Shown here one piece after another: positions 18,225 through 38,746 of a stretch of 64,000 bases of DNA. The notes under the pieces were generated by a model. That model had not been told where the DNA came from. It worked only from the letters and a program-made list of their open reading frames with translations, and did not search any database. Every line of letters begins with the position of its first letter. Position 1 is the first letter of the stretch. The translations under genes and the position numbers were made by a program. Source of the stretch: Minwuia thermotolerans (GTDB lineage: Bacteria > Pseudomonadota > Alphaproteobacteria > Minwuiales > Minwuiaceae); the NCBI RefSeq assembly GCF_002924445.1, contig NZ_PIGG01000031.1, forward strand, positions 186,001-250,000. Direction: 5' to 3'.

Positions 18225-18301
18225 TGGTCGGAGCGGCGGGATTCGAACCCACGACCCCCACACCCCCAGTATGGTGCGCTACCAGGCTGCGCTACGCTCC
18301 G
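18225..18301 (-). tRNA. tRNA-Pro (anticodon GGG)
   Basis: A 77-nt cloverleaf on the minus strand. Acceptor arms CGGAGCG and CGCTCCG pair perfectly, the discriminator is A and the CCA end is encoded. The D arm has GCGC stems around AGCCTGGTA. The anticodon stem CCATA/TGTGG encloses loop CTGGGGG with GGG. The T arm is GTGGG-TTCGAAT-CCCGC. It lies 34 bases downstream of the merR-like gene on the same strand, so it may be processed from the ihfA-merR transcript. A T run follows the 3' end. Confidence 0.97.
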
Positions 18302-35248: not shown

Positions 35249-36211
35249 ATGGCCGAAACCATCGAGACCAAGGTTCTGATCATCGGGTCGGGTCCGGCCG
35301 GGTGCACGGCGGCGATCTATGCCGCGCGCGCGGGCCTGCAGCCGGTCATGGTGCATGGCATCCAGCCTGGCGGTCAGCTCACCATCACCACCGACGTCGA
35401 GAACTACCCCGGCTTCGCCGACGTCATCCAGGGCCCGTGGCTGATGGAGCAGATGGAAAAGCAGGCAGCCAATGTCGGCACCCGGATCGTCCACGACATC
35501 GTCGCCGAAATCGATCTGTCGAAGCGGCCCTTCGTGGCGAAGGGCGACGGCGGCAACACCTATGTCGGCGAGACCGTGATCATCTCCACCGGCGCCTCGG
35601 CCAAATGGCTCGGCCTGCCCAGCGAGCAGAAGTTCCAGGGCTTCGGCGTCTCGGCCTGCGCCACCTGCGACGGCTTCTTCTACCGCGGCAAGGAAGTCTG
35701 CGTCATCGGCGGCGGCAACACCGCGGCCGAGGAAGCCCTGTTCCTGACCCACTTCGCCTCGAAGGTCTGGCTCATCCACCGCCGCGATTCGCTCCGCGCC
35801 GAGCACATCCTGCAGCAGCGGGTGCTGAAGCACGACAAGATCGAGGTGGTCTGGGATCACGTCCTGGACGAGGTTCTCGGCGACGAGGATCCGCTGGGCG
35901 TCACCGGGGTGCGCATCCGTCACGCGACCAGCGGCGAGACCCGGGAGATCCCGGTGCATGGCGTCTTCGTCGCCATCGGGCACAACCCGAACACCGAGCT
36001 GTTCAGGGGCCAGGTCGACATGGACCATGAAGGCTACATCCTCACCGCGCCGGATTCGACCGCCACCAACATACCCGGCGTCTTCGCCTCGGGCGACGTC
36101 CAGGACAAGATCTACCGCCAGGCCGTGACGGCCGCGGGCACCGGCTGCATGGCGGCGCTGGAGGCCGAAAAGTTCGCCGCCGCCGCCGAACTGCCCCAGG
36201 CCGCGGAGTAG
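35249..36211 (+). CDS. trxB: Thioredoxin reductase
   Basis: A 320-residue FAD/NADPH enzyme that reduces thioredoxin. ATG 35249 (MAETIETKVLIIGSGPAGCTAAIYAARAG) follows GGAGA. The redox-active CATC sits in SACATCDGFFYRGKEVCVIGGG, next to the NADPH-binding GGGNTAAEEA. HRRDSLRAEHI reads the NADP phosphate, and GVFASGDVQDKIYRQAVTAAGTGC closes the FAD site. The following lysR-type gene is a frequent neighbour in alphaproteobacteria. Confidence 0.97.
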   Translation: MAETIETKVLIIGSGPAGCTAAIYAARAGLQPVMVHGIQPGGQLTITTDVENYPGFADVIQGPWLMEQMEKQAANVGTRIVHDIVAEIDLSKRPFVAKGDGGNTYVGETVIISTGASAKWLGLPSEQKFQGFGVSACATCDGFFYRGKEVCVIGGGNTAAEEALFLTHFASKVWLIHRRDSLRAEHILQQRVLKHDKIEVVWDHVLDEVLGDEDPLGVTGVRIRHATSGETREIPVHGVFVAIGHNPNTELFRGQVDMDHEGYILTAPDSTATNIPGVFASGDVQDKIYRQAVTAAGTGCMAALEAEKFAAAAELPQAAE

Positions 36212-36284: not shown

Positions 36285-37175
36285 ATGGATTGGGACAAGT
36301 TGCGCATTTTTCACACGGTCGCGGACGCCGGAAGCTTCACTCATGCGGGTGAACTATTGAACCTCAGCCAGTCGGCGGTCAGCCGGCAGGTAAGCGCCCT
36401 GGAGGAGAGCCTTCGGACGACGCTGTTCCGCCGACACGCCCGCGGCCTCATCCTCACCGAACAGGGCGAATTGCTCTACAAGACCGCCCGCGAGGTGTTC
36501 TCCAAGCTGGCCATGGCCGAGGCCATGCTGACCGACGCCAAGGAGAAGCCGCGCGGCGACCTGACGGTCTCGACCACCGTCGGCCTCGGCTCGACCTGGC
36601 TGACACCGCGCATCCGCGCGTTCATCGAGGCCTACCCGGACATCTCGGTCCATCTCGTGCTGACAGACGGCGAGGTCGACCTGACGATGCGCGAGGCCGA
36701 CATCGCCATCAAGCTCCGGCCGCCGACCCAGCCGGATCTCATCCAGCGCAAGATGAACTCGATGAACTTCCACCTCTACGCCTCGCCCGACTACATCAAG
36801 CGGCGCGGCACACCGAAGGCCCCGGAAGATCTCGACAAGCATGCCCTGATCATCTACGGCGCGGAAACGGTGACCCCGGTGCCGACCAGCAACTGGGTGA
36901 TGGAGCTGGGCGCCAACCCCAACCGGCCCCGCCGGCCGGTGCTGACCGTCAACAACGTCTACGGCCTGCTGCTGGCCGTCGAAAGCGGCCTCGGCATCGC
37001 CGCCCTGCCCGACTACATCGTCCAGGGCCACAGCAAGGCCGTACGCGTGCTCGATGACATCGCGGGCCCGAGTTTCGACACCTATTTCGTCTATCCGGAG
37101 GAACTCCGGAACTCGAAGCGAATCGCGGTCTTCCGGGACTTCCTCATCCAGCAGGTCTCGGATACCCAGTTCTGA
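36285..37175 (+). CDS. LysR-family transcriptional regulator
   Basis: A 296-residue LysR-type regulator starting at ATG 36285 (MDWDKLRIFHTVADAGSFTHAG). The helix-turn-helix is AGELLNLSQSAVSRQVSALEESLRTTLFRRHARGLILTEQG (about 20-60), followed by the effector-binding domain (GDLTVSTTVGLGSTWLTPRI ... GLGIAALPDYIV). It is 73 bases after trxB on the same strand. This trxB-linked regulator is conserved in alphaproteobacteria. Effector and targets are unknown. Confidence 0.92.
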   Translation: MDWDKLRIFHTVADAGSFTHAGELLNLSQSAVSRQVSALEESLRTTLFRRHARGLILTEQGELLYKTAREVFSKLAMAEAMLTDAKEKPRGDLTVSTTVGLGSTWLTPRIRAFIEAYPDISVHLVLTDGEVDLTMREADIAIKLRPPTQPDLIQRKMNSMNFHLYASPDYIKRRGTPKAPEDLDKHALIIYGAETVTPVPTSNWVMELGANPNRPRRPVLTVNNVYGLLLAVESGLGIAALPDYIVQGHSKAVRVLDDIAGPSFDTYFVYPEELRNSKRIAVFRDFLIQQVSDTQF

Positions 37176-37252: not shown

Positions 37253-37449
37253 CTGCGACATTTGCATAGCTGAATTTCGACTGTACCACTTTATTTCACC
37301 ACGCCGACGACCTACATCTCGCGCATGGATGTTGCATCGCAGCATCGACGGGCGATCCGGCGCCTCCCTGTCGGATTGTCCGACGTCTCTTGAGACGTGA
37401 AGCCTCCCTGTTAGACTCGGCGGGTCCACTTGTTGGACCCGCCTTTTTT
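37253..37449 (+). ncRNA. Candidate structured small RNA or regulatory leader upstream of the GNAT gene
   Basis: The 292-base gap between lysR and the GNAT gene has no plausible protein. Its second half has, in order, GCCTCCCTGT (37362-37371), hairpin TCGGA-TTG-TCCGA (37371-37383), hairpin ACGTCTC-TT-GAGACGT (37383-37398), a second exact GCCTCCCTGT (37402-37411) and a strong terminator. CCTCCC is an anti-Shine-Dalgarno-like motif, as in CCUCCUCCC-type stress sRNAs of Rhodobacter. The two hairpins share one base. The terminator ends 6 bases before the GNAT ribosome-binding site, so a terminated leader controlling that gene is an alternative. Confidence 0.5.
37419..37449 (+). terminator. Strong intrinsic terminator between lysR and the GNAT gene
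   Basis: GGCGGGTCCA-CTTGT-TGGACCCGCC is a perfect 10-bp stem with 5-nt loop, followed by TTTTTT and CTTTT. Confidence 0.9.
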
Positions 37450-37467
37450 CTTTTCGGGGACAGAACG

Positions 37468-37917
37468 GTGCAGATTCGCCCTGCCGTAGCCGCAGACTCC
37501 GCCGTGCTGACGGAACTCGCTCTCCGCTCCAAGGCCCACTGGGGCTATGACGCCGCCTTCATGGATGCCTGCCGCGACGAGCTGACGGTGACCCCCGACC
37601 AGATCGTCGAACGGACGATGCTGGTAGCCGAGGAAGGCGGCCGGCTCGTCGCCATGGCGGGGCTGGAACCGGACGCGGACGTGCTGGGCCTGTGGAACAT
37701 GTTCGTCACACCCGAATGCATCGGCACCGGTCTGGGTGGTGTGCTTTTCCGCGCCATCGCCGACAAGGCGCGTGAGGCCGGCGCGCGCTGCCTCTACATC
37801 GATTCCGATCCCAACGCCCGGCCGTTCTACGAACACATGGGCGCAAGACTGGTCAGCGAGTCGCCCTCCGACTCGATTCCGGGCCGCACACTGCCCCGCC
37901 TTCGACTGGACCTGTAG
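37468..37917 (+). CDS. GNAT family N-acetyltransferase
   Basis: A 149-residue acetyltransferase starting at GTG 37468 (VQIRPAVAADSAVLTELALRSK), with GGGGA 7-8 bases upstream. No ATG lies in a suitable position. The acetyl-CoA loop region is ECIGTGLGGVLFRAIADKARE, preceded by LWNMFVTP, and the fold closes with IDSDPNARPFYEHMGARLV. The substrate is unknown. It begins 18 bases after the intrinsic terminator at 37419-37449, so transcription must either read through it or start very close to the gene. Confidence 0.85.
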   Translation: MQIRPAVAADSAVLTELALRSKAHWGYDAAFMDACRDELTVTPDQIVERTMLVAEEGGRLVAMAGLEPDADVLGLWNMFVTPECIGTGLGGVLFRAIADKAREAGARCLYIDSDPNARPFYEHMGARLVSESPSDSIPGRTLPRLRLDL

Positions 37918-37990: not shown

Positions 37991-38746
37991 ATGGCGACAG
38001 CGGATGCACGGACTGCATGGATCACCGGCGCGGGCAGCGGAATCGGTCAGGCGGCCGCCGTCGCGCTCGCCCGTGACGGCTTCGCAGTCGTCGCCAGCGG
38101 ACGCCGCCCCGAACCGCTGAACGAAACCGCCGCGATCATCGCGGACGGCGGCGGAACCTGCGTGGTCGAGCCTCTCGACGTGGCCGACCCGGACGCCTGC
38201 GCCGCGGTCGCCGGCCGCACCCAGCAGCGCTTCGGGGGCATCGATGTGCTGGTCGCCAACGCCGGCCTCAACGTGAAGGACCGTCATCTGGACAGCCTCA
38301 GCGTCGCCGACTGGCGGCAGGTCATCGACGTCGACGTCAACGGCGTCTTCCAGTGCATCCATCCGGTGCTGCCGATGATGCGCGCCCGGGGCGGCGGCCT
38401 GATCGTGAACGTCTCCTCCTGGGCGGGCCGCTGGCCCGCCTATCTGGCCGGGGCCGCCTACAACGCCGCCAAGCATGCGGTCAGCGCCATGAACGAGCTG
38501 ATCAACATGGAGGAAGGCGGCAACGGCATCCGCGCCACGGCACTCTGTCCGGGCGAGGTCTATACGCCCATCATGGACGCCCGTCCCGTGCCACCGCCGC
38601 CGGAGGAACTGGAAAAGATGGTGCAGATGGCCGACATGGGCGAGGTCATCGCCTGGCTGGCCGCACTGCCGCCCCATGTCTGCATCAACGAACTGGTGAT
38701 CAGCCCCACCGACAACCGCATCTACCGGGCCCAGCGCATCCGCTGA
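37991..38746 (+). CDS. Short-chain dehydrogenase/reductase
   Basis: A 251-residue classical SDR, start ATG 37991 behind GGGAGG. It shows the NAD(P) loop TGAGSGIG (about 12-19), NAG in VLVANAGLN, catalytic Ser in VNVSSWAG, and Tyr/Lys in YNAAKHAV. SGRRPEPL after beta-2, with a basic pair, suggests NADP preference. The substrate is unknown. It is near the GNAT gene but with a 73-base gap. Confidence 0.9.
   Translation: MATADARTAWITGAGSGIGQAAAVALARDGFAVVASGRRPEPLNETAAIIADGGGTCVVEPLDVADPDACAAVAGRTQQRFGGIDVLVANAGLNVKDRHLDSLSVADWRQVIDVDVNGVFQCIHPVLPMMRARGGGLIVNVSSWAGRWPAYLAGAAYNAAKHAVSAMNELINMEEGGNGIRATALCPGEVYTPIMDARPVPPPPEELEKMVQMADMGEVIAWLAALPPHVCINELVISPTDNRIYRAQRIR

Follow-up and report, generated by a model that had tools for sequence, protein, structure and literature searches.

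Within the 64-kb window (the whole stretch of Minwuia thermotolerans DNA that was analysed, 64,000 nucleotides), a forward-strand thioredoxin-disulfide reductase gene, trxB (35249-36211; NCBIfam TIGR01292, 404 bits against a cut-off of 343), precedes the gene of a LysR-type transcriptional regulator (36285-37175, +; Pfam HTH_1 and LysR_substrate), its partner in most related loci too. Directly 3' of this pair and on the same strand sits the gene of a predicted small RNA (sRNA) of about 125 nt, which ends at 37449, starts near 37324 as judged from a -10-like hexamer, and recurs class-wide. A palindrome resembling an operator begins 77 bases past the stop codon of the regulator gene, and an incidental neighbour encoding a GNAT acetyltransferase (37468-37917, +; Pfam Acetyltransf_1; GTG start at 37468) follows the RNA. 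An earlier, sequence-only reading had taken 37253-37449 as a single structured RNA; the 3' end stands, whereas position 37253 is the start of the operator and not of the transcript. Elsewhere in the window, a tRNA gene (18228-18301, -) is the sole Rfam match over cut-off.

In a phmmer comparison with proteins of solved structure, the regulator matched PDB 9HH1, the LsrB of A. tumefaciens (PMC11975290), at an E-value of 2e-92, against 1e-33 for the next LysR-type regulator (LTTR), and the two proteins are 49.5% identical. Closest to LsrB among the LTTRs of solved structure and encoded behind trxB, it is by sequence an LsrB ortholog (lsrB, or vtlR). The redox-active cysteines C144, C236, C244 and C273, through which the A. 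tumefaciens protein is reported to work (PMC11975290), are absent from the window ortholog, which contains no cysteine at all. Because 54 of 82 lsrB-linked orthologs likewise have none, thiol sensing, on the evidence of these protein sequences, cannot be the general input of LsrB, a regulator previously termed unique to Rhizobiales (PMC11975290).

The RNA segment folds better than all 200 of its shuffles, the z-scores being -3.9 (37253-37453) and -5.0 (37315-37453), bearing out the proposal that it is structured. All of its elements lie on the plus strand, beginning with hairpin SL1 (GATGTTGC-ATC-GCAGCATC, 37328-37346), followed in the minimum-energy fold by the 14-bp hairpin SL2 (37349-37382), which displays CCUCCC in its loop at 37363-37368, and by hairpin H3 (ACGUCU-CUUG-AGACGU, 37383-37398). 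Two exact copies of GCCTCCCTGT, at 37362-37371 and 37402-37411, are 40 bases apart, with no others in the 64-kb window. Both had been spotted from the letters and described as flanking two small hairpins, a picture that holds in part: the first copy (aSD1, for anti-Shine-Dalgarno) forms the loop of SL2 itself, and the second (aSD2), near invariant in relatives, occupies the linker before the terminator. The latter, also recognized earlier and confirmed here, combines a perfect 10-bp stem and a 5-nt loop (37419-37443) with a T6 tract (37444-37449); it is the sole terminator-like site in the region and ends 6 bases 5' of the GGGG in the GNAT Shine-Dalgarno (SD) sequence. SL2 with its CCUCCC loop is retained in other Minwuia genomes (L003-L006). 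The H3 loop is CUUG in the window versus CCC in relatives (ACGUCUCCCAGACGU), such that an extra aSD motif has been lost here. Across 85 related loci, CTCCC occurs 2.34 times per predicted RNA against 0.45 expected, an excess that is partly selection because the loci were picked by a motif that itself contains CTCCC; the count indicates that the two-aSD pattern is not due to chance.

Alignment of 45 loci by MAFFT and RNAalifold recovered H3 alone, because terminators of differing length were misaligned, and stems were instead counted per locus by script. The SL1 stem comprises 8 or more pairs in 34 of 85 loci (4.6 in shuffles), and a hairpin just before H3, termed H2, reaches at least 6 pairs in 65 of 103 thinned loci (11.9 expected), each with many pair types, while in 94 of 103 loci the terminator stem comprises 7 or more pairs, which again change. 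H3 is nearly invariant across loci, with one C-G to U-A pair, and therefore contributes almost no covariation evidence. Conserved motifs and paired changes in relatives, on which the sequence-only reading had staked its RNA, are both present, the former in aSD2 and the latter in SL1, H2 and the terminator.

BLAST with the segment returned homologs within the genus and short class-wide matches located behind trxB-lysR. A 28-nt core, ACGTCTCCCAGACGTGAAGCCTCCCTGT, is present in 54 of the 190 alphaproteobacterial genomes when up to 2 mismatches are tolerated, and a reversed-pattern control in 0; among the matches listed, its holders include Azospirillum, Roseomonas, Reyranella, Nisaea, Kiloniella, Magnetovibrio, Inquilinus, Acidiphilium and Caedibacter, the window copy being diverged at its H3 loop. 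Azospirillum brasilense is one of the species with the motif (L163); the main text of an sRNA study of this bacterium describes nothing identifiable as this locus (PMC7685610). lsrB lies at most 700 nt upstream in 91 of 118 distinct loci, and when counting is confined to the 105 loci whose upstream DNA exceeds 900 nt, it is just upstream in 84, with 21 lacking an adjoining lsrB. Because the RNA motif had served to select the 118 loci, a reverse test was run from the LsrB ortholog, called at E-values up to 1e-70 in 106 of the 190 genomes. Our covariance model R1 matches in 83 of the 190 genomes, and in 60 of the 106 ortholog-bearing genomes an R1 match follows the ortholog on its own strand at a distance of under 700 nt. 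Among 28 ortholog genomes without an R1 match, 7 have a perfect palindrome behind lsrB, most of them also with CTCCC motifs; the rest include some with neither palindrome nor CTCCC. Tandem copies behind lsrB occur at two loci (L080 in G049 and L104 in G175), where every copy comes with a separate palindrome and several hairpins that contain CTCCC.

In only 2 of the 118 loci, those of the window and of the sister genome G006, does the GNAT gene come next. This bears on the alternative offered in the sequence-only reading, in which the RNA is a cis-acting leader and its terminator attenuates GNAT. The 6-base distance from the terminator end to the GNAT SD, with no promoter-like site between them, speaks for such a leader, yet RNA and terminator persist beside other neighbours, conservation is strongest in the aSD motifs and in the lsrB-tied operator and promoter, and the folds of 37253-37453 and 37315-37453 show no alternative antiterminator pairing; we consider it very improbable. 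Read-through into GNAT is possible in the Minwuia species of the window. Besides, a promoter-like TTGAGA-N16-TAGACT at 37390-37417, within H3 and the linker, is a possible source of GNAT transcripts and probably a chance occurrence.

The palindrome between lsrB and the RNA, CTGC-GACATTT-GCAT (37253-37267, +), is one mismatch away from a class-wide ATGC-N7-GCAT and, as a single site within the window, is not significant by itself. Upstream of 46 related RNAs, the perfect form occurs in 27 against 0.31 expected from dinucleotide shuffles, and with up to one mismatch in 42 against 6.85. Positions 37264-37276 (+) of the window agree exactly with the VtlR box in the literature, GCAT-N3-TG-N3-T (PMC7486931), and the palindrome, a putative LTTR operator, fits this VtlR/LsrB box. 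The palindrome-aligned consensus reads AGCCATGC-R-N5-Y-GCATGGCTG-N3-TG; its right half is the published box, considered perhaps special to Rhizobiales (PMC7486931), and the G of the box's TG and its last T are conserved columns class-wide as well. A promoter made of CTTGAC-like and CTATAT-like hexamers separated by N17 follows throughout the class, beginning 36 bases after the palindrome start. In the window, its counterparts are a partly conserved -35-like CTTTAT (37289-37294, +; columns 36-41 from the dyad start) and, 17 bases further on, a -10-like CTACAT (37312-37317, +; columns 59-64, CTATAT-like), the class-wide hexamers being comparable with the alphaproteobacterial sigma-70 consensus. 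From these hexamer positions, the RNA would therefore start near 37324 and the palindrome would be centred near -64, which is the usual position for an LTTR activator. A perfect ATGC-N7-GCAT also stands at 38004-38018, near the start of an SDR gene, the number of such sites in the window being not above chance.

The arrangement of operator and promoter also weighs on the view that the RNA is processed from the 3' UTR of the trxB-lsrB mRNA and has no transcription of its own. The RNA lies on the same strand as lsrB and in its 3' region, with the operator at that 77-base distance from the stop codon, and its closest Rfam model is SorX, described as the product of an mRNA 3' end. SorX is listed in reviews such as PMC9438474. 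However, the palindrome keeps a fixed spacing from the -35 and -10 elements between lsrB and the RNA class-wide, and it is kept even in loci without an adjoining lsrB (L014, L016, L019, L023), leaving processing from the mRNA an unlikely origin.

Targets were sought by two genome pattern searches, one for ACAGGGAGG-N3-9-ATG and one for the same SD core with other flanks. The first pattern has 15 distinct sites in the genome, and solute-binding-protein genes stand behind 5 of these 15, encoding DctP (L235, L240, L246), an NMT1-like protein (L247) and SBP_bac_5 (L249), versus 1 of 25 scanned controls (L279), an enrichment of modest significance (Fisher one-sided p = 0.02) in a small set whose classes were viewed with the AbcR parallel in mind. 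Pairing of the aSD motifs with the SD sites of solute-binding-protein mRNAs is thus suggested, not proven. A multi-target sRNA whose CCUCCC motifs act on ribosome-binding sites had been one of the earlier proposals, and it gains from the conservation, the lsrB linkage, the RNA's own operator and promoter, and the AbcR-like predicted targets. Its companion, a sponge or decoy titrating another RNA, found no evidence: the motifs are repeated and sponges of aSD sRNAs are known, such as CrfA and SisA-D (PMC12559287), but the repeated motif is SD-binding rather than an SD-like decoy and the predicted partners are mRNA starts, so that we give a sponge next to no credence.

Our preferred reading, to which we assign a probability of roughly 0.72, is that of a trans-acting sRNA resembling AbcR, which LsrB activates and which represses nutrient uptake. 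LsrB, whose gene follows trxB and adjoins the sRNA gene on the 5' side, would bind the palindrome (37253-37267, centre near -64) and activate the sigma-70 promoter of the sRNA gene. The resulting RNA of about 125 nt would terminate at the intrinsic terminator and expose CCUCCC twice, in the SL2 loop and in the linker, for pairing with SD sequences of the ACAGGGAGG type. Translation of a set of mRNAs, including those of TRAP and ABC solute-binding proteins, would thereby be blocked, with Hfq probably engaged via the U-tail. The anatomy, the lsrB linkage, the conserved operator and promoter, the hairpins retained through pair changes and the excess of solute-binding proteins among predicted targets are observed; transcription of the sRNA, its activation by LsrB, its use of Hfq and the repression of its targets are inferred.

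A covariance-model search, which had been proposed along with the sequence-only reading, gave the R1 matches described above and, at the window locus, no Rfam sRNA family over cut-off, the best scores being 32 bits for SorX (cut-off 46.6), 30.1 for suhB (41), 26.3 for SorY (111) and 13.4 for BjrC1505 (50); in 19 scanned relatives, too, every sRNA family stayed below its cut-off. SorX (RF02784) and SorY (RF02651) of Rhodobacter have in common with the window RNA a 3' half containing CCUCCCUGUUNGAC and a terminator, whereas their 5' parts are unlike it and it scores below both cut-offs. The lsrB-linked RNAs of two genomes score 62 bits (G030) and 53 bits (G161) against SorY, and 41.5 and 52 bits, respectively, against SorX, the last value being over cut-off. 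These SorY-like RNAs (L102 in G030, L103 in G161) are located directly behind an lsrB ortholog and have a perfect palindrome, which suggests that SorX/SorY-type RNAs and the lsrB-linked RNA are of the same origin.

The suhB/MmgR/SisA-D RNAs (ar8, RF00519) resemble the window RNA in a linker CUCCCU motif and a terminator, and the target set of SisA is transporter-rich (PMC12559287); the window RNA nonetheless stays below their cut-off. It is not the suhB gene, because the same genome has a separate suhB/MmgR copy over cut-off (G000:C26:241323-241401, 55 bits). A further aSD-like candidate in that genome lies at C26:236624-236696 (32 bits). In BjrC1505 (RF02356), the consensus holds CCUCCCuGUuAucaAcUU and a terminator, and the score of the window RNA is far from the cut-off of that family.

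AbcR RNAs have been studied for symbiosis and virulence. Of the AbcR1 and AbcR2 RNAs of Rhizobiaceae and Brucella (RF02345), those of rhizobia are, like the window RNA, encoded directly downstream of lsrB/vtlR, the order in A. tumefaciens being trxB-vtlR/lsrB and then AbcR1/2 (PMC7486931). The AbcR RNAs are about 114-121 nt long and silence transporter mRNAs, and AbcR1 is activated by LsrB/VtlR (PMC8844928, PMC7486931, PMC5461406), on which its expression depends (PMC8844928, PMC7486931), although for S. meliloti the literature disagrees on the part that LsrB plays in AbcR expression (PMC7486931 vs PMC8844928). Each kind of RNA carries a pair of aSD motifs, the first displayed in a hairpin loop and the second lying between hairpins. 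In AbcR, however, the loop motif belongs to the 5' hairpin and not, as in the window, to the second, the second motif (M2) is UUCCCCUC/GUUCCC instead of CCUCCCUGUU, and the window RNA is single copy and has other hairpins.

The window RNA could be a true AbcR, that is, a diverged member of the ar15 family, which has been described from Rhizobiaceae and Brucellaceae (PMC3712013). It resembles AbcR in gene position, in the number of aSD motifs and in the logic of its terminator, and the hairpin CUCCCA of the relatives is as in motif M1 of Brucella AbcR. Against this, RF02345 (AbcR/ar15, cut-off 40 bits) found nothing at the locus even at E-values as high as 10, and its best score elsewhere in the genome was 19 bits; over cut-off it was found in 0 of 190 and 0 of 385 genomes, a result uninformative on absence because the sample includes no genome known to hold AbcR. 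We regard direct membership in RF02345 as doubtful, with a real chance of being correct.

The best explanation is that the window RNA acts like rhizobial AbcR1/2, and the two may go back to a common ancestral lsrB-linked gene. On a broader scale, we lean slightly towards an ancestral class-wide circuit in which LsrB and a neighbouring multi-aSD sRNA are joined by one operator, with AbcR in Rhizobiales and the SorY-like lsrB-linked RNAs as its local versions. If so, the circuit would reach, beyond Minwuia, Azospirillum, Roseomonas and Reyranella, into many further families of the Alphaproteobacteria, and its original LsrB input would not be thiol redox sensing, because most LsrB proteins there have no cysteines, opening the question of what cysteine-free LsrB senses. 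The analysis yields a full consensus operator for LsrB and a new RNA family for Rfam. Compared with the known systems, the mode of action is presumably ordinary; what is new is the RNA family and the breadth of the circuit, with regulator, operator and aSD sRNA co-located across many non-rhizobial alphaproteobacterial families.
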